NCBI GenBank assembly: GCA_905221615.1 | Contig: CAJNDT010001868.1 | Coordinates: forward strand, 857,501 to 921,500 | Direction of reading: 5' to 3' | Source of the DNA: Symbiodinium sp. CCMP2592 | Taxonomy: Eukaryota; Sar; Dinophyceae; Suessiales; Symbiodiniaceae | Length of the DNA: 64,000 nucleotides | Part shown: positions 8,496-61,411 of the stretch, piece by piece | Layout of the letters: the number at the start of each line of letters is the position of its first letter | Position numbering within the stretch: the first letter of the stretch is position 1 | The notes under the pieces: generated by a model | Told to the model about the DNA's origin: nothing | What the model saw: the letters and a program-made list of their open reading frames with translations, nothing else | The model's database searches: none | Program-made: the position numbers and the translations under genes

Positions 8496-11400
8496 TCAGG
8501 TCAATTCCACATATAATCAGGTCCGCTCCCTTCATTTTGGACAGTTCCGCTTCAAGAACATCCAGAAAACTCATGCTCTCCGGGCCTTTAAGAGCATGAG
8601 GGCAGTGGGCAGCAATCAGGTAGATGGAGAGCTGGGCTGGTCTTGCTTTCAGGATCAAGAGCCGCGTATCTTCAAACTGGACCTCCAAGTCATGTTCATC
8701 AACTTTCGTGGGCCTCCCATCCAGAGAGAACAGACCAAGTTGACGATGGATCCAAATGGCCGTGCCCCATCGAGATAGTGATTCAGAATGGAGCCGCAGA
8801 TATCTCTTGGATTGTAGCAAGCCCATCGGGGACTTGGTCTCCTGAAACATGATCACATTGAAAGCCTCATGGTCAAGCTGGGCCTCGAGGTAGGCAGTCT
8901 TACCACCAAAGCCCTGAACATTCAAAGTCCCCGCAGTGAGCTCGAACGAAGGTGGTTGTTGCCCAGAGTTGCGATCACCTCCTTGGACAGGGACCAATTG
9001 GTCCGGTCGAAGCCGGAAACCATCATCGCGGAATGCTCCCCATTCCAAGCATCCTCTGTGAACTTTGTAGGCCTGAGAGCATGCCGCTTTAGCTTCAATC
9101 GCAAGCCAGGAGAGGTCCAGTGTCAGAAACTCACGGCAAACTTCAACTGGGGGGGCACCAAAGCGGGCCCTGCCAGCGGAGGCCTCCTTTGCTAAAACAT
9201 CAGAGAGCTCGTTCCAAGGATTCCCCTCATGTGCACGCACATGGGCGAAGTGGAGGTCGAGGCCGGGCTGCTCACGAAGGAACAGCTCAAGCAGGTGGCC
9301 CTGCTCACCAAATTGATCCGGTGCCTGCCACCGTCCACTAGCAGCGTAGCCAGCAGACATGCAGTCAAAATACAGCGTACAGGAGAAGCATGGCATAAGG
9401 GCGCGAAACTGCATGACCCAAAGCATCGCTACCGTGATCGCAACTTGCTCTGCTCGAAGAGCCGGGGGAGCGTCAAGTGGCCAAACTGATGACGCGCCCA
9501 GCAACTGGTCGCTGATGACGCCAAGAACCGCGACACAAAGACCAACTCTTAGCAGAATCGTGACTGCAAAACCACTCTTGGTGGAATCTTTGTTGGCAGA
9601 GCCGTCCGTGTAGATCTCAATCTTGAGCAGGTCATTCATACTGTGTCGGGCCAATAATACTGACCACGGCACCGTTTGGGCAAGAGCCTTCGTAGTCGTC
9701 TCTTTCAGAGGCAGCCCATCGAGATCGAAGTGCAACCACGTGGGAGGCCAGGGCTTTGGATGCGTAGTCCAGGCTGGCGGCACATTCGGTAGTTTCAACG
9801 AGTCGATCGTTAGGTCGTACGTGGGGACCGGGAGCTCGGCCGCTATTGAGATCGTGGTTGGCGATGCCAAAGGTCCAAACACAGTGCCACCTCGTCGAGC
9901 GGGGGATCGGCTTCGTCCACGTCGGGGGGCATTGACAGGTTCAGGAGGCGGAGGGCCCCAAGGGCCGGGACCATTCGGAGCGCCGTCAGAGAGATCAGAG
10001 GAATCAGGGAGGGCATCAAAGGTAGAGCTGCTCTCCCCATCTTCGCAGTCATCATCTGCTCCATCATCGGGGTCCCCACTGCTGCCCTCCTGCGTTGGGG
10101 TAATTGCCGCCGTTTGGCGGAGGACAATCTCAAGGACCTCTCCGTCTCGCACTTCCACAAAACCATCTTCTCCATGAACACGACCTCCATGGATCACCAC
10201 GGAGAAGCCCTCAACCAACTCAATCTGCAGGTCCTCAACGTATCGCCCCGGATGGAAATGGGGCCCGTCGACAGTTGTCCATTGAGGCCAATGCCCAACA
10301 CCACGAAGATCCAAAAAGATGACTCTCGCAGATTCAGAGGGGTCAGCCTGTCGGGGCACAACAGCGACCAAAGAGTGCACACTGGCACCTTTCCAGCAAA
10401 GTCTGCCCGGACGGTCGGTAGGGGCTCTCAATCGGAAGGCGCCCTCGGTTAAGCCAAAAGCCCATGCTGCGACCTGGTGTGGACTGTTGTCACGATCTCG
10501 CCGCGCATGGTGAATGTACTGCTCCTCCGGGGACTGGAAAGCAATCATACCTCGGCCACAAGACGGAGGAGGGTCCGTACGTGGATCCCATAAATCTGGA
10601 CGGTCAAGTCGGTCACGAAGTTCTCCTGACCACTCAATGACCGTACCCCGCGGCACCACCTTCACAAGGGATCCAGAGACTGGGAGGCGGCTCTCAAGAG
10701 GTCCCAGAGGAGCCAAGTCACCTCCCACAAAGACCTCGAAGGGCTCAGCGTAGCCCTTGCCTGCTGCCTGCAGTGCCACACCGCGTGTCAGCGGCCCATG
10801 TAGGTAATGAGCGAAGACGCCTCCATCAGCAAGCCGGGCATCTATAGCAACAGCTGTACAGCTCGAGTGCGGGAGCCATTCCGGGAGCAAAAGGAAACTA
10901 GCAAAGTCCGCGTGGATCTGCGGCACAGTGGGGGAAACGTAGCCCAGCCAGTTCTGTGCAGACTCATTGCGGGCGTCTCGCACAAAGTCAAAGAGAGTCT
11001 CAGCCGTCGTGGGGAAGGGCACAGCAACTTGTATCATTTCTGGCTCCGAGAAGGGCGTGAGGACCCACAACGAGATATGCCTCGCCCTGACTGGCTCAAA
11101 TCCATCTGGCGGCCATTCCTCCTCAGGCTCCTCTTCATCAAGTGGCTCGGGGCCTGTCGGCGGTAGGACCGGTGGTCCTTGGCGGTGGATCGCAGCTGGG
11201 TGTAACCCTGCACTCAACAGTGGCTGGCTCCAAATCATCTGGCTCTCGGCAACTGTAAGCTGTTCAAACTCGGACCGCTGGTGTGCCAGGAAGCGAGGGT
11301 CAAGGCGGCCTCGGCCGCCAATCCTCATTGGGCTGGAGACCCCACAACGAAAAAGGCCGAATGCCAGGAGCGGTCGGATGGGCAAAGGCAGCCGACTTGT

Positions 11401-11793: not shown

Positions 11794-11846
11794 TCCCAAC
11801 CGCAAGCTGCCCCCGACGAAGCAAGCCTCAGCCGCCAAAAGGGCAG

Positions 11847-13106
11847 CTAGATTTCCGGGGGTCCATTGCTCGCCTGGTTCTTCGCCAGGGCAGCAACCGA
11901 TGTCTCCTCGTCGTCGTCCTGCACGACCTCCACATTGTGTGCCTCTCTCACCGCTGCAAGCTTTTGGCCCAAAGAGCCGCTGACAACAGGCCTGCTGGGG
12001 TCTCTGCCTTTCTCCTTGATAGGTGTTCGCCTGGTAGAGGACCGAGATCTTCTCCTCGCCGGTGAGATCGATGGGGTAGGCGCCGAGGTCCTCGTTGAGG
12101 GCGAGACCTGATATGGGTCTTGGAGCGCAGCCGAGGCCGGGCTTGCTCCAAAGCCAGGCGCCTCCTTCCCAGCAACCATGGCCTCCAAAAGCGGAGTAGT
12201 GGAAGCCTTCCGTGGAGTTGTCTTCAGGGGAGTGAGCGGCGCAACTGTCGGCCTCCTGGGCGGTGTTGTGGCCACCACCTCTCGCAAGCGGCTCCTCACT
12301 TGCTCGACAGCCGCCGAAGTCATCTCCTCGTCGCTGTCCTCGGTGCCTTGCAACAAGGCATCCCATTCCAAGTCCACCTCTGGCGGCGGAGCCTGCGTCC
12401 TGGGTTCCACGATCTTCTCCGGGTTGGCCATCGCCTCCTGGAGCTCTGCGAATGCAGTGGTCTGGGCATCCTGACATTCCTGGAGGGTCTGCTTCGCTTT
12501 CAAGGATTCCTGGCTGTGTCGCTCGCGACCCTTGATAAATTTCTTCTTGAGCTCGTCCTGGAACTGGACCCAGTCGGCTTCGATCCTCTCGCAGTCCTCC
12601 GTGGCTTTCCGAGTACGGACCTCCGCTTTCCTCGCGACGGTCACAAGCCGCTGCACTGCCTTGACCAGGCCTGCAGCTGCCGTAGGTTGCTTGGCTCTCT
12701 CTTCCACAGGAGGTGGCCGCGGATGGTGAGCTGCTGGCCTGGTGTAGGTTGGGTACTCGTAGCCCTCCCAGTCGTGGCTGTCCTCCCATCCACCATACGA
12801 GGCTGAGTCCTGCCAGCCGCCACCACGTCTGCCTGTGCCGTTTTCGTTCCACTGGCCCCATTGTGGCTTCTTTCCCATCGACTTGAAGGTCCGATACACA
12901 GGGCAGGAATGGTGCGCCTCAAGGAGTCGCACGTCTCTGCTCCAAGGCTGCAGTCCTTGGCAGCGAAGTGCCTTGATGCGGCCACGGGCAGCTGAGCGCT
13001 TACGCCTCTGCAGTCGGTGCCAGCCAGGTGACTTCACTATGGCAGCGTGCGCTTTTCGCACTGGGGACTGGGCAATGCGTCGGGCTACCCTTCGCTCGAT
13101 CCCAAA
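11847..13106 (-). CDS. LINE element 1 ORF1 protein
   Basis: The frame is open from the 5' end of the element (13107) to the TAG at 11847. It has no ATG until 12878 (MGKKPQW). A GTG at 13061 is only nominal. Yet the stretch upstream of 12878 matches element 2 ORF1 residue by residue (SPGWHR, RSAARGRIKA, LLEAHHSCPVY), so it is probably translated. Visible parts: a basic N-terminus; a Gly/Trp-rich stretch (WGQW..., GGGWQDS); a charged helical region likely to form a coiled coil (VKAVQRLVTVARKAEVRTRK... to about FAELQEAM); and a Ser/Pro/Arg-rich C-terminal third. There is no CCHC knuckle or RRM of the usual LINE ORF1 kind. By analogy it would bind element RNA; that is inference. The ORF2 frame is -1 relative to this one. 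Confidence 0.75.
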   Translation of the reverse strand, partial: FGIERRVARRIAQSPVRKAHAAIVKSPGWHRLQRRKRSAARGRIKALRCQGLQPWSRDVRLLEAHHSCPVYRTFKSMGKKPQWGQWNENGTGRRGGGWQDSASYGGWEDSHDWEGYEYPTYTRPAAHHPRPPPVEERAKQPTAAAGLVKAVQRLVTVARKAEVRTRKATEDCERIEADWVQFQDELKKKFIKGRERHSQESLKAKQTLQECQDAQTTAFAELQEAMANPEKIVEPRTQAPPPEVDLEWDALLQGTEDSDEEMTSAAVEQVRSRLREVVATTPPRRPTVAPLTPLKTTPRKASTTPLLEAMVAGKEAPGFGASPASAALQDPYQVSPSTRTSAPTPSISPARRRSRSSTRRTPIKEKGRDPSRPVVSGSLGQKLAAVREAHNVEVVQDDDEETSVAALAKNQASNGPPEI

Positions 13107-13107
13107 C

Positions 13108-13122
13108 CCTGCTTACCTACAT
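13108..13122. repeat. Target-site duplication of LINE element 1, 5' copy
   Basis: Second copy of CCTGCTTACCTACAT (see 4582-4596). It runs directly into a (CATA)n tract up to 13135, so the original target was a CATA microsatellite with a short interruption. Confidence 0.88.
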
Positions 13123-46246: not shown

Positions 46247-49200
46247 TTAATTGAGATGGGGTGAAACGAGAAGGCCGCAGAGGTCGTCGCAGGTGGAGAT
46301 GACACAGTGGTCACCTCTGACACGCTTGCTGAGACCCCGCAGCGAAGAGACGGACTGGACGCAGAGGTCAGCCGAAGACGACACCAGGAGTAGGGCAGGT
46401 ATGCGGAGCAAGGCAAGCTTCAGGAAGAAGCGAAGAAGGTCGGCTCCAAGGACAGCGCCCTCCAATTCATCACACAACGTCGAGATGCCCAAGTCGGGGC
46501 AGGACGGAGCTGAGAGAAAGTGGAGGCCAAGGAGATCCAACACAAACGCAACTTCCTCGAAAGGCCCCTCCATAAAAGAGGGTAGCTTGCCGATCCGGAA
46601 GGCCTCCAGACACTCTGCATGGGTGAACTCGATAAGGCCGGACTCCCTTCGGGAAACTGCGCACCAAGGGGAGTCAGGGTGTACCCAGACAACCGTGTGA
46701 GCGGGGGAAGTCCGAAGAGGAGATCCCAGGCAGATCGGGGCCGTGTCAATGACACTAACCACACACGCAGCGTCCCTGTATGTGCGGAAGACAGACTGGG
46801 CAACGGCTGGATCAGGGACAATCCATTGGACAATGTCAGCTTGGCAGATCCACTCTGCACAAGTAATTAGACGCTCATGACCCCCGGAGGAGCAAAGTGT
46901 CTCAAGCCAGGCCTGAGCGGTCGCTCGGAGACGGTCTGTCGGTGCACACACACAAGAGAAGGCAATGCGGAGGCGATCCCATAGTACGGAATCCGACAAG
47001 AGTTCGACTGGCCCATCAAAGTCCAGGTGGAGTAGGCAATCCCATACTTCCGCAACCGGACAGTCTTCTTGTGGGAAGACGAGGGTCTGAGCGAACTGTC
47101 GGATCGGCCCACTCCCTGGCAAGGCCGGGCACAGTCCTGCCATCCGGTCGTCCACTTTGCGGTGTCCTACACCCGGTTCAAACTCACAAGCATATCCATT
47201 GGAAAGGAGCTTGTCTCTACATGACCGGGAATAGCGCAGGTGTCTGCAAAGTCTGACGTTGTTGCTGTATGTGCGGAGGCATGCTTGACACTGGAGCCCT
47301 GAGAGAATGCCCCGACCCGTCATGCGCCGACCATGACACTTAAAGGCATGAACCGACCACTTCTGCTTGGAGGGGAATGTGGTACGACACAAAGCACAGC
47401 AGTGGGCGGAGTCAAGGCGATCCTGTGTAACTCCATGCAGGGACGCCCCATGTAGTCGCAACTGTTGAACAAGAAGGGCGCAATGTTGTTGGTGTGCCGC
47501 CTGCCAGGCCTCAGCCTGGACAGCTCTGGCCTGAGCCCGTCGAAGCAGATTTTTCCAGCGACCTGGTGCCGACCCTATCATGGTCAACCACTCTGGCCAA
47601 ACTTCGGTCCACCGTCGTGTGTCAGTTGATGACCGAGTAGTCTGCCACAACCAACTGAGGGATTCCCGAACTGATCCGAGCCAGGCCTCCTCCCAATGGG
47701 CCAGCGCCCACATCTGCTTGAGGCCGAGTCTAACGAACAGTAGCAGGTGTCTCAATCTGTGTACGTGAAGAAGCACAAACATCGACGGGAGTCCCAGAAA
47801 GGCAAGTACCTGATCACGACCTGCGTGCATAGCCTGATCAAAGTCCCAGTGTGGACGACACATATGGCAGGCCATCCTCTCATATGCTGCACTAAGTGCC
47901 GACTGAGCAGCGGGGCGTAGTGCAGGCCATGTTCCTGCACCGTGCAGTAGAACGGAAAGGATGAGGGAGTTGAAGAGGGTAGCCTTGGCAGTCTTGGGTA
48001 CAATCGGAGAACCAAAGATCTGGCGTTTCCTCTTTTGGAAAGCCTCATGGGCCATCCCAACCCGAGAGCGTATCTCTCGAGCAACGTCACCCGAGAAATG
48101 GATGACACCGCCCAAGTGGCGGTAGAAATGCACGACCCGAACACGGGCTTGTTGCCACAGACGGGAAGGAATCTCGACAGAAGGGTCCTTGTCCCTGAAG
48201 AGGGCGGCCCTGCAGGCCTTGGAGCCCTTTCCACAGGGTACGATGATTAATTCTGTCTTACCTCGAGCGAGGTTGGGTAACAACGCCCTTGAGAGGCAAG
48301 CATCGAGTAAGGCACCTGTGACGTGCCTAGCCTTCGTGATGACAGCCTCAGCGGAATCCGCCAACATCATTAGAGCAAGGTCGTCCATCCAAGTGGCGTC
48401 CATGATGTCAATGGGTTGTGCCTCAGACGCCCTACTTGAGAAAATATCCCCCTGCATGGAGTCTCGAAAGGGCAAGTGAGTCAAGCAGCCCATGTCTACA
48501 AGGTCCCGCGAGAGTTCCCGTAGGACCCGGGAGAATAGAAAGGAAAAGATGACATCTGCACAATTGTCGCCCGGACGGCTCCCTATACCTGTCTGGACCA
48601 AGGAAGGTCCAGCTTTGAACCGAAACCATGTCGAGGCCAGCACTTCGCTCATGGCCTGAGAAAGCCAAGGGCTGGCCCCACTGTCCTCGAAAATGGACTT
48701 CCCAGAGAGGTGAAGGTGGAGCTCGTGCATGACCCCTGCGGGGAGACGAATGGTCTGTGCCACTTTGGCGATGGCCTCGTCGCAGAGTGGAGCTCCGGTC
48801 AGTAGGGGCCGACACACTCTATAAAATGCTTCTTGAAGGTCAAGAAATAGGATGGCGAAGGACTGTTGTTTTGCTCGTGCGGAAGCAACAAAGAGCCGTA
48901 CAGCGTGTGAAACGGCTGTCACGGGGCACGAAGGCAAGCCCTCAAGTTGCAACGGGGATGTCACTGAGGAGAGAGGCCCAACACATCTGGAACGCAGGAG
49001 CCTATGAAAGGCTTTCCCTGTCACAGCAGAGATGAGAATACCTCTATGCGAGGCACACAACGCGGGCGAACCTTTGCCTTTCCAGGCCGCCTCAAGACTC
49101 CCACCCTTGAACTGAACCGGCTCTGCTAGGCGCATGCTGGTCTTAAGGAGGAGAGGGTAAAGAACCTTAGAGGCCGTGGCTACGGCGAAGTGGAGGGCTT

Positions 49201-52200
49201 CTCCCGGTACACCATCTAGACCCGCAGCTCGGCCTGTGGAAGTGTCCCGTAAAGCCGTTTCGAGCTCGATGCGGCTCGGAAGATCGGCCGCGGAGAACAG
49301 AAGAGAGTCAAGATCCCGGCTCGCTTGTATGTGCATGCAGCTCGCAGCGAGTTCCTGTGGAAGGATCTTGCAGCCGTCCTCAATGCCGGCAAAGTGCTGG
49401 ATCCAAGTATCCTCAACTTCCTCACTGGTGGCGGCCGGTACACCGGTGGAGGTGAGCACCAGAGGAAGTCCATTGTGTGTTCGGGCCTTCCGTTTGGGTG
49501 GCCCCAGCAAGGGTTTGAGTCTGCGCACCGCCTCAGCCGTGGCGCAGTGTTCCGCCTCAGCGGCGACGTCGGTGATCCGTTGCCGGACATCTCTACGAAC
49601 AGCCTGTCTGAGGGCCTTTCGTGTCTGCCGCAGTTCCTGTGCAAAACTCGCTAGCCGACGCTGTCGGCCCATGACGATAAAAACGCTGCAGAGCTCAAAG
49701 ACCCTCAGGCGACACTGCCGACGCCATGCTAGGAAAGGTGCTCTGGTGCCCGGGGGGAGGAGACTTTCCCTGCACCGGAGTATCTGGCGACGTAGCCAGA
49801 CGCGTCGTTGTCTGAGTTGCCAGGTGTACTCACTAAAGTGGGAGGAGCGGCACTGCCCTCTTTGACTGGGGAATGCCCTGGGCAGTGCTGTCTGAAGATA
49901 GGCTTCCAAAGCCGCCCAATGTCTGCGCACATTGGTTGACCAGGGGACGGTGGGTGCATGGCGCCAAACCTGTGCAAGAGTCGCCTGACCTTCTGCTGTG
50001 CCAATGGCTTCCCTGTCAACCCTGAACTTGGAAGGGCCCGGGGTGATAGCTTTGACAAGTGACGACACATCGACCTGGGCCGCAAAGTGGTCTGTGTGCG
50101 CCTGTCCCCAGTCAAGTTCAGCTTGAATGCAGGATGCTCGTGGTCCCGCTACCCACGTACAGGGTATGCCAACAAAGTCAATCCTTGAGCCGGATAACCC
50201 AGACGGGGAAATCCACGTAAGGGAGGGTCCATGATGAATGTCCGGAAAGGTCGAAGGGATCCACAGATCCTGTGTATGCAAGATCCGTTGAAGTCCTGAC
50301 GGAACTGTGCCTGTCCCTGGTAGGACTAGGCTGCCAACTCGGCCCGGAATTTCAAGCGAAAAATGGACATTGTAGTCACCCAACAACACCACTTCATGGG
50401 CCTCACTGAAACGATGTAGCCTCTCATGGAGCGAGGCCCACCACAAGTCACGCTGTGGATCACAGGTAGTGGGACCATGGACGCAGACAAACAAGATCTT
50501 GATTCCTCCTCTTGCGAATCTCACAATGAGCGTGCGGGGGTCCGCAAAGGTAACGATGAAATCGCCCGGCTGAAAGAAAGACTTGATGCCCCTGGAGGAC
50601 AGGAAGGGTGACAGACGGCTAAACCAAATCTCTACACCGTGGTTGCCGGCAGTGTCCTTTCCGGAGCAGAATCTTATGTGCGACTTCGAAGTGATCGTGT
50701 CGCTAGCCGACGCCCGCGTTTCTTGTAGGGCGGCAACATGAACATCTAGCGCAACTAGCTGTTCGCGGAGGAAACCGGCTCGACCCTTAAACCCCTTATC
50801 CTCAACCTCGGGGACAGAGGAATCATTGAGAGTCTGAACGTTGACAGTGAGCAACCTAAGCGAGAGCAGCTGTGAGCGGTCCGGCTGTGTGTGCAGTGAT
50901 TCACGAAATCCGAACCATGCTCTGGCCTCGGATGTCGACGGAGGTTGGGCATCGGCAAACCTACTGTGATCAGTGAGGAATGCACCCTGAAAGCTGGGCC
51001 ATGCCTGTGGCTCTGCCGCTCCAGTGTAAATCAACCACCACCAGTGGACAGATCCGTCCCTGATGGCTTGAGCCAGGCTGTGGGCTTGGGTGCTGAGTGT
51101 CGACTGAGTCCTATTTCTGACCGCAAATTTTGCAAGCGAGTCGACAAGTTCATTGTCCGGCTGTCCCTGGTGGGATCTAACGTGGCTAATGGAGCCACTG
51201 AAGGCAGGCTGGACAGCACACAGGAGTTGAAGAAGGGCACGTGCAGCCGGCATCATGGGGTAGTCGGTGTTACACCCCCAAGCTCCATTGGCCTGCTGTA
51301 GTGCCGACAGGCAATCGGCAAGGTACTCGAGTGAAGAGCAAGCAGGAGCTTGCATGCCCCAGTAAATTGCCCAGATTATTGCCGTGTATTCACCTGCTAG
51401 GGCAGAGTGTGCGGGTGCTCCGACAAAGGCAGGGTGTAGAGCAGAGACCTGGACTAGGCCGGCCTGCCATCCCAGGAAGTAGCTTGCCTGGCCCCTGTAC
51501 CCGAAGGCGGCACAGGCCCAAGAGCTAACATCCCCGTCAAAAGACCCATCCGTAAAGACAGTGACTGCGTCAAAACACTTTGGCAGGAGTTGCTCGTCCT
51601 CTAGCCAGTCCGTGTTGCAGCAATCGAGTAGGGACTGGGCAGCGGGATGGATGTCAATGGAGTCAGGAATCGATAGATTGAGGTCGAAGGACCCTGGGCA
51701 GATACAACGCATGACCTGGTCCAGGCTTGTGCCGATATCAACTGAGACGACAGAGAGGTCAAAGGTCTGGCAGGCTGGTAAGTGTGAAGAAAGTCGCAGA
51801 GGCTCAGGTCTGCCAGGCCGAGGGCCTTGTATATCTGACCGATCTGGTTGAGTGGTGGCGATTGGGTGAGCCTCACCATGGCCCGGAGCCTGGTGTTCAA
51901 GTAAAGCCTCCAGCAGGGTCCAAGCAAGGAACAGCGGGTAGTCTTGGCTTTCAGCTCGACTATATTCAAGCAAGGTGTGCAATGGCAGCTCACAGTCAAG
52001 TTCCCAGCCTCCAGACGGAGCATGCGCAAGGCTGTCCCGTTCAGCAGCATCAGAGAAGGCGGGAGCACGCAAGGAAGCAAAAGGTGCATGACTGCGGCAT
52101 GGCGTGGGCACTGGTCGGACAGCATCTTGTCCTAGCTGGCCGTTGGTTTCTTGGACAGGGGCGGTCTTGTCGACCACCGAAAGTTGAACTGCCTCGACAA

Positions 52201-52402
52201 AAGAGGAGTTGAACTGGACGTGAAGAAGGGCAAAGACGCAAAGCCAAGGCATGCGGCGTATTGCCCACAGGCAGCACGTTAGCAGGAAGTGTCCGATGGC
52301 GAGACTCAATAGGAACACTCGAAAGAATCCGGCCGCATCATCAGAGGTGTCTCCAGGCGGCCCTCTCCAAAGGGCATGATGAAAAGTAACCCAGTTCCAC
52401 AT
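46247..52402 (-). CDS. LINE element 2 RNase H-endonuclease-reverse transcriptase-zinc finger polyprotein
   Basis: A 2051-residue uninterrupted frame. Residues 24-62 hold two hydrophobic segments (VFLLSLAIGHFLLTCCLWAI, MPWLCVFALLHV). RNase H is at about 281-430 with its acidic set VFTDGS, LAGEYTAI, LADCLSAL and NELVDSLAK. The AP-type endonuclease is at 515-780: TVNVQTLND, QETR, LLGDYNVHF, RIDFVG and HTDHF. The reverse transcriptase is at about 1035-1480: linker AAGLDGVPGEAL, motif A LFLDLQEAFY (from 1185), motif B GSRPGDNCADVIF, and motif C WMDD (1338-1341). Zinc fingers lie at 1668-1735 (CALCRTTF...H...H, CQACLRTY...H...C). The remaining 300 residues are unassigned. All catalytic residues I can check are present, so the enzymes may be active. 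The ATG at 52402 lies 97 bases inside the preceding frame; whether it is the true start or the two frames were once one is open. Confidence 0.92.
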   Translation of the reverse strand: MWNWVTFHHALWRGPPGDTSDDAAGFFRVFLLSLAIGHFLLTCCLWAIRRMPWLCVFALLHVQFNSSFVEAVQLSVVDKTAPVQETNGQLGQDAVRPVPTPCRSHAPFASLRAPAFSDAAERDSLAHAPSGGWELDCELPLHTLLEYSRAESQDYPLFLAWTLLEALLEHQAPGHGEAHPIATTQPDRSDIQGPRPGRPEPLRLSSHLPACQTFDLSVVSVDIGTSLDQVMRCICPGSFDLNLSIPDSIDIHPAAQSLLDCCNTDWLEDEQLLPKCFDAVTVFTDGSFDGDVSSWACAAFGYRGQASYFLGWQAGLVQVSALHPAFVGAPAHSALAGEYTAIIWAIYWGMQAPACSSLEYLADCLSALQQANGAWGCNTDYPMMPAARALLQLLCAVQPAFSGSISHVRSHQGQPDNELVDSLAKFAVRNRTQSTLSTQAHSLAQAIRDGSVHWWWLIYTGAAEPQAWPSFQGAFLTDHSRFADAQPPSTSEARAWFGFRESLHTQPDRSQLLSLRLLTVNVQTLNDSSVPEVEDKGFKGRAGFLREQLVALDVHVAALQETRASASDTITSKSHIRFCSGKDTAGNHGVEIWFSRLSPFLSSRGIKSFFQPGDFIVTFADPRTLIVRFARGGIKILFVCVHGPTTCDPQRDLWWASLHERLHRFSEAHEVVLLGDYNVHFSLEIPGRVGSLVLPGTGTVPSGLQRILHTQDLWIPSTFPDIHHGPSLTWISPSGLSGSRIDFVGIPCTWVAGPRASCIQAELDWGQAHTDHFAAQVDVSSLVKAITPGPSKFRVDREAIGTAEGQATLAQVWRHAPTVPWSTNVRRHWAALEAYLQTALPRAFPSQRGQCRSSHFSEYTWQLRQRRVWLRRQILRCRESLLPPGTRAPFLAWRRQCRLRVFELCSVFIVMGRQRRLASFAQELRQTRKALRQAVRRDVRQRITDVAAEAEHCATAEAVRRLKPLLGPPKRKARTHNGLPLVLTSTGVPAATSEEVEDTWIQHFAGIEDGCKILPQELAASCMHIQASRDLDSLLFSAADLPSRIELETALRDTSTGRAAGLDGVPGEALHFAVATASKVLYPLLLKTSMRLAEPVQFKGGSLEAAWKGKGSPALCASHRGILISAVTGKAFHRLLRSRCVGPLSSVTSPLQLEGLPSCPVTAVSHAVRLFVASARAKQQSFAILFLDLQEAFYRVCRPLLTGAPLCDEAIAKVAQTIRLPAGVMHELHLHLSGKSIFEDSGASPWLSQAMSEVLASTWFRFKAGPSLVQTGIGSRPGDNCADVIFSFLFSRVLRELSRDLVDMGCLTHLPFRDSMQGDIFSSRASEAQPIDIMDATWMDDLALMMLADSAEAVITKARHVTGALLDACLSRALLPNLARGKTELIIVPCGKGSKACRAALFRDKDPSVEIPSRLWQQARVRVVHFYRHLGGVIHFSGDVAREIRSRVGMAHEAFQKRKRQIFGSPIVPKTAKATLFNSLILSVLLHGAGTWPALRPAAQSALSAAYERMACHMCRPHWDFDQAMHAGRDQVLAFLGLPSMFVLLHVHRLRHLLLFVRLGLKQMWALAHWEEAWLGSVRESLSWLWQTTRSSTDTRRWTEVWPEWLTMIGSAPGRWKNLLRRAQARAVQAEAWQAAHQQHCALLVQQLRLHGASLHGVTQDRLDSAHCCALCRTTFPSKQKWSVHAFKCHGRRMTGRGILSGLQCQACLRTYSNNVRLCRHLRYSRSCRDKLLSNGYACEFEPGVGHRKVDDRMAGLCPALPGSGPIRQFAQTLVFPQEDCPVAEVWDCLLHLDFDGPVELLSDSVLWDRLRIAFSCVCAPTDRLRATAQAWLETLCSSGGHERLITCAEWICQADIVQWIVPDPAVAQSVFRTYRDAACVVSVIDTAPICLGSPLRTSPAHTVVWVHPDSPWCAVSRRESGLIEFTHAECLEAFRIGKLPSFMEGPFEEVAFVLDLLGLHFLSAPSCPDLGISTLCDELEGAVLGADLLRFFLKLALLRIPALLLVSSSADLCVQSVSSLRGLSKRVRGDHCVISTCDDLCGLLVSPHLN

Positions 52403-54327
52403 GACGGAAGGACGGCTCTCTCTGGTGAATGGCCTCCACCAAAGAACATCTGAACAGTTAAGTTAAGTCTGGGGCGAGAGGCTGCGGTTTGGGATGCCAC
52501 TCCACAGGCACGCGTCGCACCAGCAGGCTGTGAACCAGAACGGCGGGAGCCTCCTGTTCCAGCATCGTGCCCTGTTGAGATGCTAGCAGAGACAGAGTGA
52601 CTGGAAGCGGCAGCGGAGTCTCCATCTTCTTGGTGCCCATCTGAACCATCAGCATCATGAGACGGTGGGCCGTCAGGAGGCGGTGTGTTACTTCCTGCTG
52701 TCGAGTCAGGAAGGAAGCTGCATGGCAAGAAGGTGAGGATGAGGACATCCAGGTCCTCTACCCAAATGTCCTGTGTGACATGGTGCACGAAACCATCCTG
52801 TTCAAAGTAGCACAACGCAAACCCTGTCGGGCAACGGCTGGCAAATTGGGCATTGAGTCTGGCACATGTAACAACGCCTCCAGGTGCACTGATGCATTCC
52901 ACCCGTAGCAAAAGGGGCCTGGCATCGATGAAGCAGACGGCATGGCGTTCAACTTGTGGCATTGTGTAGAGAGCAGGGGTCAATGCAGCGACGACAAGGT
53001 CTTGGACAACACCAAGGTGGGTGTAGGCAGGAGCAAGAGGCTCAGGCGAGCACAAAATGAGAGAAGCCTCAATAACTCCAACAGCGACAGAAAGATCCCT
53101 TTTCAAGGAGCTTCGTCGCGCAGGATTGATGGTGAAAGAAAATGCCGCCTGCGGGCCAAGAACCCAGGCGTGCTCCTGCACAGAGAAGGTGGGGGTCCAC
53201 GAGGGATCCCAATGTTCCGCTGAACTGAGAAGTGCGGACAGAGTGGTCGTTGTGAAGTGCGTGTGCCGCGGTGGAACAAAAATCGCAATGTCCCCATGAC
53301 TGACAGTTACATTTGTCCCATGCTGGATGGGCCACGGAATGTCTTTGAGATAGACTTCAAGATCAGACTGTGGCGGAAAGCCCGCAGCGACGAGCAAGCC
53401 CTCTCTTTGCACAATGCCGGGGAGTTGTGCAACATGAATCTGGCCGTCAGCTCTAGTGCTGTCAAGTACAACTAGGGCACCCGAGGGGTCCCAAAGGGGT
53501 AGGCCTATCAAAACCGCTACCCCATCAAGGGACTGAATGGGAACATGGCCTACCCTAGGCAGATAGCTGCGGATAGCTGGATCTCTGGCAGCACTAACTG
53601 CCTCAAGGACCTCGGCAGTCCCGATGCCAAGCGGAATCCTCACACGAACGACCTCAACTTCATAATGTTGTCCGAGGATGCAAAAGACTGCTTCAGCAAA
53701 GGAGGGTGGCTCAGGAGTGTCGTCGCCACCGTGTCCACTTGTTGGACCAGCAGCATGGGCGGTGGCTGAAGGTGCTGAGTCAAAGAGTGGATCACTTCGA
53801 GCAACTCGAATAGTTGGAGCAGTATCTCGATCATTTGCGCTCAAGGACGCAGCAGGCGCCGAGATGTCAGAAGCTCCAGCAAAGTTGTCCGAAGCGTTTG
53901 GAGGCAAAGACGCAGCTCTAGAGGGAATATATTCAGCTACTAGAACCTGACCAGGGTGGACGGCTGCATGGCGCTGGGAACTCGGATGGCCCACGAAAAC
54001 GGCGCGCCAGCCCCTAGGCGCATGTCCATCAAGGATGTCAAGGATATCCCATGCGTCAACGCGTCCTTCATTAAAGGGAACTGTGAACCAGCCATTACGC
54101 AACGGTCGGCAGTCAACCAGAACACAGAAGGCATTGGAATCAGCATGGTCTCTTTCAACAACACCGATGACGGCCCTGACCGGACAGCCCGCAACAACAC
54201 AGTCAGTGATGCGGGGGTTGGCTGGGCAGAGCATGAAACCTCCAACTGGGAGGCCAAGGCTGGAAGCAATGGTGTTTATACCTGGTCGGACAGGTAACAT
54301 CAGTCTCATGCAGAATGGTCTGACCAT
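52306..54327 (-). CDS. LINE element 2 ORF2 part 3: end of module 3, module 4, acidic linker
   Basis: A 673-residue frame. Its first 15 or so residues are out of frame with the module; the meaningful part starts near 54285 (INTIASSLGLPVGG) and continues module 3 to 53922, including FCVLVDCRPLRNGWF. Module 4 occupies about residues 216-537 (VRVRIPLGIG..VSAARD, LVVLDSTRADGQIHV, DLEVYLKD, VCFIDARPLLLRVE). Then comes a Ser/Asp/Gly-rich acidic linker with a basic tail (GGSRRSGSQP). The frame ends at 52306, overlapping the next ORF by 97 bases in a different frame. Compared with element 1, where module and RNase H are in one frame, this suggests either frameshift decay or a separate ORF. Function is unknown. 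Confidence 0.7.
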   Translation of the reverse strand: MVRPFCMRLMLPVRPGINTIASSLGLPVGGFMLCPANPRITDCVVAGCPVRAVIGVVERDHADSNAFCVLVDCRPLRNGWFTVPFNEGRVDAWDILDILDGHAPRGWRAVFVGHPSSQRHAAVHPGQVLVAEYIPSRAASLPPNASDNFAGASDISAPAASLSANDRDTAPTIRVARSDPLFDSAPSATAHAAGPTSGHGGDDTPEPPSFAEAVFCILGQHYEVEVVRVRIPLGIGTAEVLEAVSAARDPAIRSYLPRVGHVPIQSLDGVAVLIGLPLWDPSGALVVLDSTRADGQIHVAQLPGIVQREGLLVAAGFPPQSDLEVYLKDIPWPIQHGTNVTVSHGDIAIFVPPRHTHFTTTTLSALLSSAEHWDPSWTPTFSVQEHAWVLGPQAAFSFTINPARRSSLKRDLSVAVGVIEASLILCSPEPLAPAYTHLGVVQDLVVAALTPALYTMPQVERHAVCFIDARPLLLRVECISAPGGVVTCARLNAQFASRCPTGFALCYFEQDGFVHHVTQDIWVEDLDVLILTFLPCSFLPDSTAGSNTPPPDGPPSHDADGSDGHQEDGDSAAASSHSVSASISTGHDAGTGGSRRSGSQPAGATRACGVASQTAASRPRLNLTVQMFFGGGHSPERAVLPSCGTGLLFIMPFGEGRLETPLMMRPDSFECSY
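52717..53682 (-). other. Unassigned module, copy 4 of LINE element 2
   Basis: About 320 residues, from CILGQHYEVEVVRV to LDVLILTFLPC. It aligns by landmark with the other copies: AR pair after the first helix, LPLWDPSG, DSTRADGQI, LEVYLKD, GDIAIFVPP, FIDARPLLLR and the PTGFALCYF close. Confidence 0.65.
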
Positions 54328-54862
54328 CGAAGACTAGACCATATGCCGCGACCTGACACGGAGGCAGTGTGAAGGGATCAACACTCCACCAGGTTGGATT
54401 GCCAAGGCATTCAGCAAGTGTGACAGGCTGCTCAGCAGGAGTGCCAGCGGGCACGATCCTAATGGTGTCACCGGAAGTGAGATGTAACTCTGCCCCGTCG
54501 GGAAGTGGGTCACTGTCATACCCAACATATACGTCAAGGTCCTGGTGAGCCGACAGCCCAGCAGCGTGCACAAGGGCAAATCGGTCGGCATAAGAACGCC
54601 CACTCTTTGCAAACAAGCGACCGTCTATAAGTCTTGTGTCAAAGCAGATGGTAGGTGGCTGGGGACCCCAGCTGGGTTCTGCAAGGAACAGTCCACAGCC
54701 GGCAATGGGCTGAGGATTCGCAGGATGTAGAATCGGGAATTGGCGCCTGTCCGTTGTCGGCCGGGCAGCCCGAACAGCAGCAAGAGCTTCCGGGGGCACT
54801 GCAGGAATGGTGAGGGTGACTTCCGTCTGGTACAGTGTGTACTCAGGTGTTGCAACAACAAA
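53922..54862 (-). other. Unassigned module, copy 3 of LINE element 2 (frameshifted)
   Basis: Runs from FVVATPEYTLYQ to VLVAEYIP, crossing one frame change near 54285. Landmarks: DTRLIDGRLFA, DLDVYVG, GDTIRIVPAG, then after the frame change LVDCRPLRN and PRGWRAVFVG. Confidence 0.65.
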
Positions 54863-55027
54863 GTACAGACGTCGGTCCTCAGATACCTGTTCAAGCTCAT
54901 CCTGAAACCCCGTGGTATCAGTTGCAAGGGGCTCCCGATGATCGAAGGGAGCGGAGTAAGTCCAGCTGACTTGTTCCTGGTTGCCATCACCAAAAGTGGG
55001 CAGATTCTCATGCCACTGAGAGAGACA
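54203..55027 (-). CDS. LINE element 2 ORF2 part 2: first half of module 3 (frameshifted fragment)
   Basis: The frame is open from a stop at 55030 to 54203. No convincing start codon is present; it is a segment of ORF2 displaced by one base. It reads QWHENLPTFGDGNQ, then FVVATPEYTLYQTEVTL and the module landmarks VRAARPT, LAEPSWGPQP, CFDTRLIDGRLFA, LSAHQDLDVYVG and SGDTIRIVPAG. The upstream frame runs out at 55008, just after a TCTCTCTC run near 55020 where a slip of one base would join the two. Near 54285 the coding sense passes to the next frame (52306-54327). Residues after about 54285 in this frame are out of phase. Confidence 0.6.
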   Translation of the reverse strand, partial: CLSQWHENLPTFGDGNQEQVSWTYSAPFDHREPLATDTTGFQDELEQVSEDRRLYFVVATPEYTLYQTEVTLTIPAVPPEALAAVRAARPTTDRRQFPILHPANPQPIAGCGLFLAEPSWGPQPPTICFDTRLIDGRLFAKSGRSYADRFALVHAAGLSAHQDLDVYVGYDSDPLPDGAELHLTSGDTIRIVPAGTPAEQPVTLAECLGNPTWWSVDPFTLPPCQVAAYGLVFDGQTILHETDVTCPTRYKHHCFQPWPPSWRFHALPSQPPHH

Positions 55028-58000
55028 CTATAGGAACCAGGGTCACCCAAAAGTTTGAAGTTGAGAACCCCAAGGTGTAAATCCCAGGGACACCCAGAGA
55101 ACGAGGAAGTTGGCAAAGGGCTGTTAACAAACAGTACTTCCTTCGGGTCAAGAGTGGAGGGAAATTGGAGGCAACTACAACCTGAAGCTGGGTGCCCCCA
55201 AAGAGGGAAGCAAGGATGCCAGGGGAAAGAATGGCATGGCCAGCAGCACCATCAGTGCGTCGGGGTGAGCGGCTTCTTTCGCGACGGTCTTCGGCAGCTC
55301 CATTATCGACAGAGGACATACTGGAATCAGAGCTTGCAGACTCTGATTCAGCATGCTCATCTTCCCCCTCAAGCTCCTGTGATGACAACCCGCTAGGGCC
55401 AGGGGAGTTCTCAAGGAAGTCTTGCACAAACTGCACTACCAGGATACCTGCTTGCGGAACGTGGACATAGGTGCCCTCAGTGCGTAGTTCATGCCTTCCA
55501 CCCTTGATGCTGACAGCATAGCCAGGGGGTGCAGCAGGTTCAAAACGAGCGCACAAAGCATCGAAGTCGAGCACACCTTGATTGGTGAGGACCCATTCAA
55601 TGTCACGAAGGATCGGCCTGGTATCTATGATGGCTGTGCATGGGCCAGCACCATCAGCACTGACAGTGGAGCCTCCAACGCGCTGAGTGGCAACACAAAG
55701 AGCCTTACAAGTGTGCCCAAAGTGCTCGATATCCTCTATGGCAGGGCAAGACCGATGCAAAACAGAATCAGAGAGGCTGTAACCAAGTTGTGCAGAAATG
55801 GCACGCCGGAATTCAACGGGATCATCGGCAGGATCCTGGTCATAGGAAAAGGCTCTTGGCGCTGAATCATTAAATACCAGCAGAGCCGACCGAACAGGCC
55901 CAGGGTACATGGGGCACGGTTGGGCCCAGTGGCGTTCAGACCCGAGAAGCTCTTCAAAAGTGTATAAAGGGCCCGGCCGACGGCCTCCACGGAGAAGCGT
56001 GAACAAGCCCCCATTCTCGGGCACGATGGCCCTGTCCCTCGGTTGAAGCCTGTCATCAAAGAAGATGTTCAGCTCCAGTGCATCGGTAAGCTGGACAGCG
56101 GACAGCAAGGAGGCCCGGGAAAGCTGTGCTGGCACAATGATGCTGAAAAGCCGACCATCAACATGTCGGAGATCAACAAGCACATGGCATCTGTCAGCAG
56201 CCCACACTGGCGAAGACAGAATGCACGCGAATCGATTGTCTGGCTGAGGCTCAACTGGGACAAGTGTGTCGAAGTAAAGGGACTGGTCTTCATTCCTGGC
56301 GTCTTGAACCTCATTGAGAGCATCTTCCGGATCACAGGGGACCCGCATGACGAGGGGCAGCACCTCTGCGCGGTATCGGGGCGCAAAGACAAGAAAGTGA
56401 CCATGCAAGAAAGTGGGAGGAGGTACGCCCTGAGGCTTGTCCCTAGCGTAGACTGTCGGCGGCGGCGCATGTGCCTCATCGTCGTATCTGGCAGGAGGAT
56501 GGACAGTTCGATGCACATCTGTGGCCCGTTGCCACGGAACTCCCTGGCAGCCTCCTGGCATATGGTACGGGTTGCGCATGCCAATGGTAGCACTGTTGAC
56601 AAGTGAGTCGCCCGCCTGCTCTTCTACATCTAGAAGGGGAAACGGCTCTAGATCGACTGTCAGCACTCCTCCGTTGTGAACACAGAAAGCTGAGCCGACC
56701 TTTGGAAGGCCACTAAAGAGAGGTCGGTATCCTCGCGGGGGACTGAACACTATAAGTGACTGCAAGACCGATTCCTCAACCTGTTGATCATCCGTATAGT
56801 AGAAGGTAGGTTGTCTGCCGATGGGGCGACAGTCAAGGATGAGGAAAGTGCCTCGATTGGCCCTGTCTAGCTCAGACCGAGAGCCCTTTCGGGCCGCAAT
56901 GACCCCGGCTAGAAGAGCTCCCTGGTGGACATAAGGATGGAAGGAATCCTTATCTGGCTTGCAAAGCATGAGGTGTTCTTGACGGCAGTGTAGCGCACTA
57001 GCTGCATGTGACGCGAGATCCTCATCAGGTTGACCTGGGTGGAGGATTTCACGATCGACACTTGGTGCAAGGACTAGCCAAGAATCAGAAACCTCCTCAC
57101 TGATTATTTGGCGAACCTCGGCTGAGAGGAAGTCGGGGTCTCGGAGGCAATCGACTGTTGCAGGGTACCAAAAAGGGCTACCATAAACAGCAACAAACTT
57201 TATGGTGTCACCTGTGGTAACTCTTATGCTTCTGTCGGAGCACAGTGGTTCGGAGCTGCCTGTCTGAAACGCGTCCCAGGGAGAGACTGTGTGCCTGCTG
57301 GCATGCTCAATCAGCTGAGCATGCGGGAGGTTTCGCTCGACTATGACCGCGTAGACGGGACCACCAACTGCTGAGAAATCGAGGACGATCTCTGCATTGA
57401 CGGAGCGCTCAAGCCATTGTGGGACTAGAATAAGCGAAACATAGCCCTCTTCTGGCTGTGGTTCAACGAAATCAAGGTCAGAGGCGAAGAAGACCCTCCT
57501 CGGACTCAGTTCAGCGATGACTGACTGCAGGAATAACACAGGGTCTGCAGGGACCTCGACAGGAACTTGCACAGATTGAGTAGGGTATCCCGGTGCAAAG
57601 AGGATACACTGCACCTTGAGTGCACGGCTGGTTGATGTTGACCCGACGCAAGGGCCGAACAGTTCATCTGTGCCGGACGCACTGGCTCCGGGCTGAGCCT
57701 GAGGTTCGGGTGGCAGAGGATCAGGTCGGGTGGTTGATGCACTGCCATATGAGGCAACTCTGTGGTTGGGCCCAGGGGCAACTTCGACTAGATGATCCCT
57801 TGGTATCCGGAGGGGAGCTGCCCAAACACAGACAGGGTAGTGGAGCAATGCAAGAAGCCACAAAGCAAGCCAATTGCCTACCTTAGGTATTCTCCGAGAT
57901 CGACTGGGGTGACCTCCTTGCAGCCCTTTACTCGGCCTTTTGTGTGCGGTGCTAGGTCGGGGCAGGCCGAAGGACTGACTAGGGGAGAACCCCCGGAGAC

Positions 58001-59074: not shown

Positions 59075-60484
59075 CTACACATCCAGTTTGGCAAGATCGC
59101 CAGTCTGTCCAGGTACAGCATGTTGAAGCTCTTCTTGTGTCACAACGATCGTATCGTTGGCGTTGTGACCCGGGTGTCCATCTGGTCGGAGGCCGAAGGG
59201 AAACATGGCTCCACTGCTTCGCTTGTTTTGCACACGTTCCTCGAGCGATGGAGCAGGTGCATGGTCGCCTCCGGCAAGTTCCCCAGGCTTGTTCTGAGGT
59301 TCCTTGACAGGTCCTCGGGTCTCGTAAGGGTTGATCCGTGGGGAAGCCGATGTAGTCCTCTTCAGTCTGGTCGTCGCTGGAGAAGTTTGGTATGGACCAG
59401 CACCTGGAGGCTCCGCATAAGCAGGTGTTGGCAGACCAGCTGGCAGATTGGCCGCAGGAGGGTGTCCTGCTCCAGTCACATGCCCCTCTTGGCTCAAGGT
59501 TCCCGTCCCGTATGGCACGGCAAGGCCCGGCGGGGTAGTCTGCCCTTGGCCAATGTGTGGCAGCACCGATAAAGTAGCCTGGAGGAGGCGAGCAGCAGCC
59601 TCCGGAGTCATCAGACATTGTCCTGGACCATTGGAGGGTGCTCCACTCGTCCGAATCATGTTCGCAGCTGCCAAGGCGTCTTGCAGGAACCCTGCCTGTG
59701 CAGGGACTTCGGTCGTCGATAGCAGGGTGTCCCAAGGGTCCTCCACATTCTCCATCGGAACAGCAGCTGCAGGTCGTTCGCCATTCACAATGGCTTGAAC
59801 GCTGCGGGCAGCGTCCTGTCCGACAGTGGTCGAGTCCTGGATCTCCTGGTCGATCCTTTGCAGAGCCGATTCGTACCTTGTTAGCTCGGCCACGTAGTCC
59901 TCTTTGGCTTTCTTGGCGAAAAGCTTCCATTGCGCTTCCTTGGTGGTCTTTTCCTCGCGAAGCCTTCGCACTTTGTTGTCTGCTTTCTTCGCGATGGATA
60001 CTGCCTTCTGAACTTCTCGCATCACGTTGTACCCCTCGATGTTCTCTGTCGGTATCGTAGGGGCTGCGGTAGAGGGCAGCTCGACCTGGTCGTAGGAGGG
60101 GCGTGTGTTGGCCGATTTGGCCCGCGGCGACGCAGCATAGGAGCCAGGCCAGACACGACCTGGCCAGGGAGGTCTGCCTCCACGCCATTCTTTCCACTCC
60201 TTTGCTGTCCATTTCTTTCCACCCATGCCCTGAGAGGTTGGGGGGAGTCGGCTGTATCTCGGCCTCGAGTGGTGGCTTTCCAACAGAGCCAAATCTTTTG
60301 GCAGTGGATACAGGCCAGCAAGTCTCCTTGCCTTGATTCTGGCCCTGCCGCGGGAGCGTTTGGCTCGCAGCCGCCGGTGCCAAGCAGGACTTCTATGAAG
60401 TCCCGTCGCAATGGCCCGCGGAGTCAAAGCGTGCTCTGTGGCACTGGGGCTACAGCTATCCTCTTCCTGAGGTTGATCTGAGCC
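59075..60484 (-). CDS. LINE element 2 ORF1 protein
   Basis: Open from the 5' end of the element to the TAG at 59075. Inside the element the first ATG is at 60226 (MGGKKW), but upstream residues match element 1 ORF1 (SPAWHRRLRAKRSRGRARIK, LLESHHSRPRY), so the region before it is probably translated too. The same frame stays open outward through the flanking TA/CATA tract, which contains in-frame ATGs. Visible parts: an Arg/Lys-rich N-terminus; a Trp/Gly/Pro stretch; a charged coiled-coil-like helix (VQKAVSIAKKADNKVRRLRE to about DQEIQDS); and a Pro/Gly/Thr-rich C-terminus. No zinc knuckle or RRM is present. It presumably binds element RNA, by analogy with other LINE ORF1 proteins. Confidence 0.72.
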   Translation of the reverse strand, partial: GSDQPQEEDSCSPSATEHALTPRAIATGLHRSPAWHRRLRAKRSRGRARIKARRLAGLYPLPKDLALLESHHSRPRYSRLPPTSQGMGGKKWTAKEWKEWRGGRPPWPGRVWPGSYAASPRAKSANTRPSYDQVELPSTAAPTIPTENIEGYNVMREVQKAVSIAKKADNKVRRLREEKTTKEAQWKLFAKKAKEDYVAELTRYESALQRIDQEIQDSTTVGQDAARSVQAIVNGERPAAAVPMENVEDPWDTLLSTTEVPAQAGFLQDALAAANMIRTSGAPSNGPGQCLMTPEAAARLLQATLSVLPHIGQGQTTPPGLAVPYGTGTLSQEGHVTGAGHPPAANLPAGLPTPAYAEPPGAGPYQTSPATTRLKRTTSASPRINPYETRGPVKEPQNKPGELAGGDHAPAPSLEERVQNKRSSGAMFPFGLRPDGHPGHNANDTIVVTQEELQHAVPGQTGDLAKLDV

Positions 60485-60486
60485 CT

Positions 60487-60498
60487 TATTATATACAC
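60487..60498. repeat. Target-site duplication of LINE element 2, 5' copy
   Basis: Second copy of TATTATATACAC (see 46177-46188), immediately upstream of the element on the minus strand. Confidence 0.7.
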
Positions 60499-60523
60499 AT
60501 GTATATACATATGTGTATATATA

Positions 60524-60559
<36 letters not shown>

Positions 60560-60563
60560 TATA
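60499..60563. repeat. (CATA)n / (TA)n microsatellite at the 5' side of LINE element 2
   Basis: TATATACATATG words, then about eight CATA units in a row, then TATATATATA. With the TATATATGTATATGAA at 46161 it reconstructs one AT-rich microsatellite split by the element. Confidence 0.92.
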
Positions 60564-61411
60564 GGAGGACGGGCACCTTCAGCTGCAACGGGTGTGATTG
60601 CAGAGAGACACGTCACCTCCGGGGAGGTTTGTTTCTCCACCGAAACTCTGAAACTTTACCCCGCGGTGACAGGGAGAGTACTAGGACCTAGCTCCATGTG
60701 CCTCGTCGGAACAACACGAACCCAGAGTTTGGAGCGATCCTCAACCCTTGACATGTGGGTTCGGGTTTCGAATGGGTTCTCCTCAACTGGCGAGGCAACC
60801 TTTCGCCTGCCTCTTGAATTGTTATCAACAGCGAAAGTCCTTTGCACATATAGCTGTAGTCCCTACATCGCCCAGCGATTGAACATCTTTAAAATAGAGA
60901 AGCTGCTTGAAAGGCAGCCAGGGAGCAGCACGGAGTTCATGGCTGAGCTGCCGCTGGCCCGAGAAATTGGGCTTGGCATCGGTTTTCTTGCGGTATCGTC
61001 CATTGCAACGACTGCTTAATCGCGGTCGGGGTCATGTCCTATCCCCGTTCTAGAGACCAGATGTAAAGATCAGAGTTTGTGTGGCACCTGCCGGAAACAC
61101 TTGCTGCAATTCCAAAGGATTGAAGCGTTCATTTCGAGGCAGCCTTGGCCACACTCCTTCACTTAGCGGACTGCACCTGCCCGAATGGATTGGCTCAAGA
61201 GTATAGCGGGGAGTTCATGCTTCTCGTGAACATTTGACTGCATTGCGAAAAAAACCAATGTAGGTTTTACAGACGTGTCGCTAGACGTCGCCGACGCCTC
61301 GCAACAATGCACTTGCAAAGAAGGCCTCGTGGACACTCATCGACATCAACGAACAGAACCGTTGATGCGGAAATACAGAGTGATCTTTCGCGAGTTGAAT
61401 GCCGATACGCC
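60564..61411. other. Region between LINE element 2 and the RING-PHD gene
   Basis: A plus-strand frame is open to a TAA at 61019 (VLGPSSMCLVGTTRT, then FRLPLELLSTAKVLC, ending GIGFLAVSSIATTA). It has no start outside the microsatellite and no recognisable motif. The rest is presumably promoter and 5' leader of the RING-PHD gene. No TATA-type element or splice-leader acceptor can be fixed by eye. Confidence 0.35.

Follow-up and report, generated by a model that had tools for sequence, protein, structure and literature searches.

A long interspersed nuclear element (LINE) of Symbiodinium that acquired and kept an accessory domain has been described as SymbioLINE-Dnmt (PMC5890265), and in the legend of Fig. 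1 of that paper the domains named for DNMT retrotransposons, with LINE and DIRS elements taken together, include Exo_endo_phos, RVT_1 and RNase_H. Accessory domains in retrotransposons are also discussed in PMC6338049, where the part of the text concerned contains no mention of ubiquitin-like domains (UBLs). Here we analyzed a stretch of 64,000 nucleotides from Symbiodinium sp. CCMP2592 (assembly GCA_905221615.1, contig CAJNDT010001868.1, positions 857,501 to 921,500; hereafter the window), which carries two LINE-like elements, element 1 and element 2, with a repeated module of about 320 residues in their second open reading frame (ORF2). The reading that we prefer, with a probability of roughly 0.55, is that this module consists of four tandem beta-grasp units, N-terminal in a dinoflagellate-type LINE ORF2, which are probably non-conjugating and most likely form a multivalent protein-interaction scaffold.

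A repeated module in two LINE-like elements

The module occurs five times, once in element 1 (E1) and four times in element 2 (copies a to d, or E2a to E2d), always on the minus strand:

10111..11076, minus strand: element 1 module, type a, inside ORF 8305-12918 (profile match and tree)
56634..57608, minus strand: element 2 module a (profile match; type a in the tree)
55422..56402, minus strand: element 2 module b (profile match; modelled in full)
53922..54862, minus strand: element 2 module c (profile match of two pieces; frame change at about 54333-54206)
52711..53685, minus strand: element 2 module d (profile match)

Leave-one-out profiles were built from the full copies minus the copy under test, copy c entering none of them, and were searched against the six-frame translation of the window, cut at the stops into 1370 pieces, with reversed decoys as the control. 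The held-out copies were recovered at i-Evalues of 1.8e-18 (E1), 9.7e-23 (E2a), 7.8e-26 (E2b) and 1.3e-25 (E2d), and copy c was found as two frame pieces, at 1.2e-29 and, for the C-terminal piece, 2.5e-05. Since each profile recovered its held-out copy, while the top non-module match of the five runs had an E-value of 0.67 and the top reversed decoy one of 0.066, the repeat is genuine and stands well clear of chance. The same runs against the 1370 pieces revealed no sixth copy. The five recurrences noticed by eye in the first-pass annotation therefore stand, and at no point did the profiles miss the other copies or fail to lift them above background.

Pairwise identity among the five copies is 18-26%, copy c being compared over its N-terminal piece only, which bears out the earlier description of the copies as strongly diverged. 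The reading frame is open in four copies and shifts in copy c between about 54333 and 54206; the modules extend a few residues past the ends first given, and the linkers between them measure roughly 80 residues or more. The series of short motifs by which the recurrence had been recognized is present, except that some motifs are missing in some copies; copy b, for instance, has GGLFTLL where GDTI would be expected.

The module had been called unassigned, and by sequence it indeed has no named family. Searches of Pfam, NCBIfam and PDB sequences gave weak matches only: to the AAR2 N-terminal domain (one of 17 modules at E = 0.06, and P0002, a related protein described below, at 0.028), to an acyltransferase PapA5 model (E = 0.0066 in one of 17), to an asparagine synthetase model (E = 0.056 in one of 17) and to Sm D1 (E = 0.95). 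Unit 2 of the module, as defined below, had three weak matches among PDB sequences (E = 1.3-1.9), and the assignment of a family by this route was dropped.

Predicted fold of the module

Two stretches were modelled with AlphaFold2 (AF2), the whole of E2b and the C-terminal half of E1 (10111..10596), from shallow input alignments of 17 and 13 rows. The mean predicted local distance difference test score (pLDDT) of the five models was 85.8-89.9; for E2b the pLDDT was 89.9 and the predicted template modelling score (pTM) 0.87. This model shows four beta-grasp-like units in a row with the same order of secondary-structure elements, and the packing predicted for them (two strands, a helix and further strands) is that of the ubiquitin-like superfamily. 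Modelled alone, the C-terminal half of E1 agreed in fold class with E2b, so that the two stretches gave like folds and not the different ones that the first-pass annotation had named as grounds for rejection. The units, whose borders in module b were placed by us, are as follows:

56202..56402, minus strand: module b unit 1, residues 1-67; strands 2-6 and 13-16, helix 25-35, strands 46-49 and 59-64 (model); the least tested unit
55977..56195, minus strand: module b unit 2, residues 70-142, ubiquitin-like (model)
55677..55895, minus strand: module b unit 3, residues 170-242 (model)
55422..55652, minus strand: module b unit 4, residues 251-327 (model and profile similarity to unit 2)
10111..10596, minus strand: element 1 module, C-terminal half; unit 3 at about 10563-10333 and unit 4 at about 10332-10111 (model)

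The best Foldseek match of the E2b model was linear tetra-ubiquitin (E = 2.9e-10), and unit 2 could be superposed on ubiquitin at 2.0 A; sequence identity was 2-17% in the 50 superpositions listed. When unit profiles were compared with hhalign, units 2 and 4 matched each other with an E-value of 5.8e-6 and a score of 30.0, which none of 40 column-shuffled controls reached (best 12.8). The other five unit pairs did not rise above the shuffles in hhalign, and units 1 and 3 are thus ubiquitin-like by predicted structure alone. A ubiquitin-like fold is, accordingly, strongly predicted for unit 2, predicted for unit 4 by the model together with its sequence similarity to unit 2, and predicted more weakly for units 1 and 3. 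Of the earlier motifs, unit 1 holds V(x)VP, AR and PQP, unit 2 holds D(x)R..DGRLF, DLxVY and GDTI..VP, and unit 4 holds D(x)RP(I/L) and PxGYxV. The notion of a 320-residue module hence survives as one homologous block and fails as a single domain, since four ubiquitin-like units are predicted in it; our first guess from sequence, two such units per module, was overruled by the model. Four predicted units in each of four modules would give element 2 about 16 units.

A Gly-Gly pair, as expected of a conjugatable modifier, lies near 3 of 58 unit ends (1/14, 1/15, 1/16 and 0/13 for units 1 to 4). Because the unit ends have no conserved Gly-Gly, the units are probably neither conjugated nor cleaved in the manner of ubiquitin. 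UBLs that lack such ends generally act as fixed interaction domains, and it is for this reason that we favor a multivalent scaffold. UBLs are described that dimerise protein kinase D (PMC6768651) or stabilise SMCHD1 (PMC6620310). The ORF2 polyprotein would then run from array through RNase H, endonuclease and reverse transcriptase to zinc fingers, with a single array in element 1 and four arrays in element 2, and these, as a fixed multivalent scaffold, might assemble the ORF2 protein or the ribonucleoprotein (RNP) of the element, or dock it to host proteins. We infer this role from the predicted fold together with the number of copies, the linkers and what is known of non-conjugating UBLs; among the functions that had been suggested for the module, assembly or protein binding fits the predicted fold better than binding of RNA or DNA. 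A bolder version, which we regard as speculative, is that a dinoflagellate LINE family encodes its own linear "polyubiquitin" in cis with the reverse transcriptase, and that the 4 to 16 units either form a polymerising RNP shell or scaffold or act as a decoy that draws off ubiquitin receptors of the host. We know of no other LINE in which a retrotransposon particle is built or protected in such a way.

Relatives and architecture of the elements

Three protein searches identified at least seven related proteins (P0001-P0007), each with one to three modules, whole or partial, the last search adding P0007 alone; two of the three scored the best 8000 candidates by shared words, with candidate length limited, and some relatives may have been missed. 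The two that carry an organism label are both from Symbiodinium. One of them, P0003 (hypothetical protein AK812_SmicGene3619 of Symbiodinium microadriaticum, 2292 residues), has one full and one partial module followed by RNase H, endonuclease and reverse transcriptase, and element 2 is 36% identical to it over 1314 residues of these three enzyme regions. The P0003 record is silent on what the module does, and the protein has fewer modules than the four of element 2; a further "module" match at residues 1853-1937 was false, as it falls in the reverse transcriptase region. With single-protein queries, no relative was confirmed in viral contigs, nor in bacterial or archaeal genomes.

Three modules (P0004_289, P0002_1161 and P0003_17) were excluded before the first tree as too short, as was P0006 before the second, which is unrooted and holds 16 modules. 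One group, type a, unites E1, P0005, E2a and the first modules of P0001, P0007 and P0002 (support 94.2/96), and another, type c, unites E2c, P0003, the second modules of P0001, P0007 and P0002 and the first of P0004 (94.8/89), whereas E2b, E2d, the third module of P0001 and the second of P0004 have no resolved place. Because types a and c each join different proteins, at least two module types seem to be older than the split of the families, barring exchange of modules between elements. The duplications were rightly called old, and at least the one that separates types a and c looks older than this element, since each of these types unites different element families in the tree. Selection on the module finds indirect support in one protein pair, P0001 and P0007, which have identical residues at 133/190 and 176/254 of their module positions and at 45/95 of their linker positions, a comparison of module with linker identity and not a ratio of nonsynonymous to synonymous substitution rates.

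Of 15 linkers examined, 7 carry the motif R[ST]R[ST]P, where shuffled sequences gave a mean of 0.019 and never more than 1, and the motif is absent from all other parts of the 14 window and relative proteins scanned; it was picked after being seen, and the window frame 54206-55027 lay outside the scan. It resembles SR-type phosphorylation sites. Similar linker motifs are present in P0001, P0002, P0003 and P0004, and those in the window include:

55263..55277, minus strand: RSRSP motif in the linker after module b (motif scan)
9901..9915, minus strand: RSRSP motif in the linker after the element 1 module (motif scan)

Hydrophobic stretches, possibly membrane-spanning, lie at 52315-52259 in element 2, at 11505-11449 in element 1 and at about residue 757 of P0003. 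Scored on an energy scale, hydrophobicity exceeded shuffles in the flank before the E1 module and in those between the last module and RNase H in element 2 and P0003 (fractions 0.002, 0.016 and 0.006); four other flanks were unremarkable (0.078, 0.148, 0.158 and 0.228), and a secretory or membrane reading was set aside. By eye, element 2 and P0003 share RP(V/I)PTPCR between the hydrophobic stretch and RNase H.

In both elements, ORF2 contains, in order, the modules, RNase H, an APE-type endonuclease, reverse transcriptase motifs and C2H2-like fingers, and both have a separate ORF1:

59078..60655, minus strand: ORF1 of element 2 (homology to element 1 ORF1; sub-cut-off Pfam match only)
11850..13112, minus strand: ORF1 of element 1 (homology to element 2 ORF1; no Pfam family up to E = 0.5)
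51122..51568, minus strand: element 2 RNase H, on the N-terminal side of the endonuclease (PF00075 match short of the curated cut-off, E = 0.0016)
50222..50773, minus strand: APE-type endonuclease of element 2 (PF03372, E = 1.1e-4, 22.5 bits where the cut-off is 24.5; homologous to P0003)
48371..48847, minus strand: reverse transcriptase core of element 2 (motif A-like FLDLQEAF to motif C-like WMDD, by eye)

The two ORF1s are 29% identical over 247 residues (E = 9.9e-10, BLAST-type comparison). Neither gave a Pfam match to an ORF1p family, though distant relatives could be missed, and a Pfam scan up to E = 0.5 found no DNA methylase in either; by eye, both contain charged, possibly coiled-coil segments. 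RNase H of element 1 was likewise below the curated cut-off (Pfam E = 5.5e-05). The endonuclease of P0003 is above the cut-off for PF03372 (E = 9.5e-08) and is thus of the APE type, and that of element 1, without a Pfam match, belongs to a region spanning RNase H and endonuclease that is 27% identical to element 2 over 447 residues (BLAST). Reverse transcriptase motifs of element 1 were read by eye at 6992-6542 on the minus strand. Pfam RVT_1 matched neither element nor P0003 with E up to 10, so this enzyme, whose motifs are readable, seems to be strongly diverged. Near the C terminus of ORF2 are two C2H2-like fingers, at 47398-47267 in element 2 (by eye) and at 5582-5474 in element 1 (Pfam E = 0.0023, below cut-off). 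RNase H precedes endonuclease and reverse transcriptase in element 2 (51568-46250), element 1 (9615-4638) and P0003; in RNase H-bearing LINEs it usually follows the reverse transcriptase. Both window elements look decayed, since their ORF2 frames are broken, near 55010, at 54206-54333 and at 52306-52462 in element 2, and near 8302-8495 in element 1.

Alternative explanations and known systems

The main rival to a scaffold is mimicry of polyubiquitin, in which the arrays would engage host ubiquitin receptors, the proteasome, p97 or deubiquitinases and so protect the element or alter host control. The linear tetramer as best structural match, the presence of at least four units per protein and the 2.0 A superposition of unit 2 all speak for it; nevertheless, we consider it unlikely, since any UBL array would be expected to match such chains, identity in the listed superpositions is just 2-17%, and the unit 2 profile found no ubiquitin by sequence. 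Inserted ubiquitin serves as a cleavage device in pestivirus polyproteins, and host deubiquitinases might similarly cut the units and free RNase H, endonuclease and reverse transcriptase. The array does lie N-terminal of the enzymes within one polyprotein in P0003, and the top viral structure match was a pestivirus polyprotein fragment, but the scarcity of Gly-Gly (3 of 58 unit ends, none conserved) makes this the least probable of the explanations.

It is also improbable that the module is a nucleic-acid-binding or chaperone domain replacing part of ORF1p: its position on the N-terminal side of the polyprotein and basic patches to which the linker RSRSP motifs could contribute would suit such a role, whereas both elements retain a separate ORF1 and the ubiquitin-like fold is not a usual RNA-binding fold. 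We give equally little weight to the idea that the AF2 models mislead and that a different kind of repeated alpha-beta domain makes up the module. The shallow alignments and the weakly supported units 1 and 3 leave room for this; set against them are the pLDDT values of all five models, the agreement of the second model in fold class, and the likeness of units 2 and 4 by sequence, which is independent of AF2.

Among known systems, linear polyubiquitin (PDB 7yui and others), the best Foldseek match, shares the head-to-tail arrangement of beta-grasp units, but the module has no detectable sequence similarity to it and no Gly-Gly joints, and its units are strongly diverged from one another. In USP7 the UBL array is C-terminal to the protease, whereas the module arrays are N-terminal to RNase H, endonuclease and reverse transcriptase; the likeness of its tandem UBLs (PDB 5c56 and 2ylm, among the Foldseek matches) is that array and enzyme share one chain. 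The multi-ubiquitin domain protein with PDB entry 9cd2 differs in being bacterial and is, to our knowledge, not known from any retroelement; no paper on it was among the matches listed. Nor did any of the matches listed in the open-access literature, a scope that takes in few subscription journals and preprints, describe a retrotransposon with a ubiquitin-like array. We therefore see here a known class of element to which a region of known, though predicted, fold has been added, a pairing that was not found reported. If this is true, a group of "hypothetical" dinoflagellate LINE proteins gains a fold, retroelements become a new use of the ubiquitin fold, and the recruitment of protein-interaction scaffolds by LINEs becomes a testable idea. 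SymbioLINE-Dnmt, like these elements a Symbiodinium LINE with an accessory domain, has its DNA methyltransferase in an ORF upstream of the reverse transcriptase ORF, whereas here ORF1 has no methyltransferase match and it is ORF2 that carries the ubiquitin-like array.

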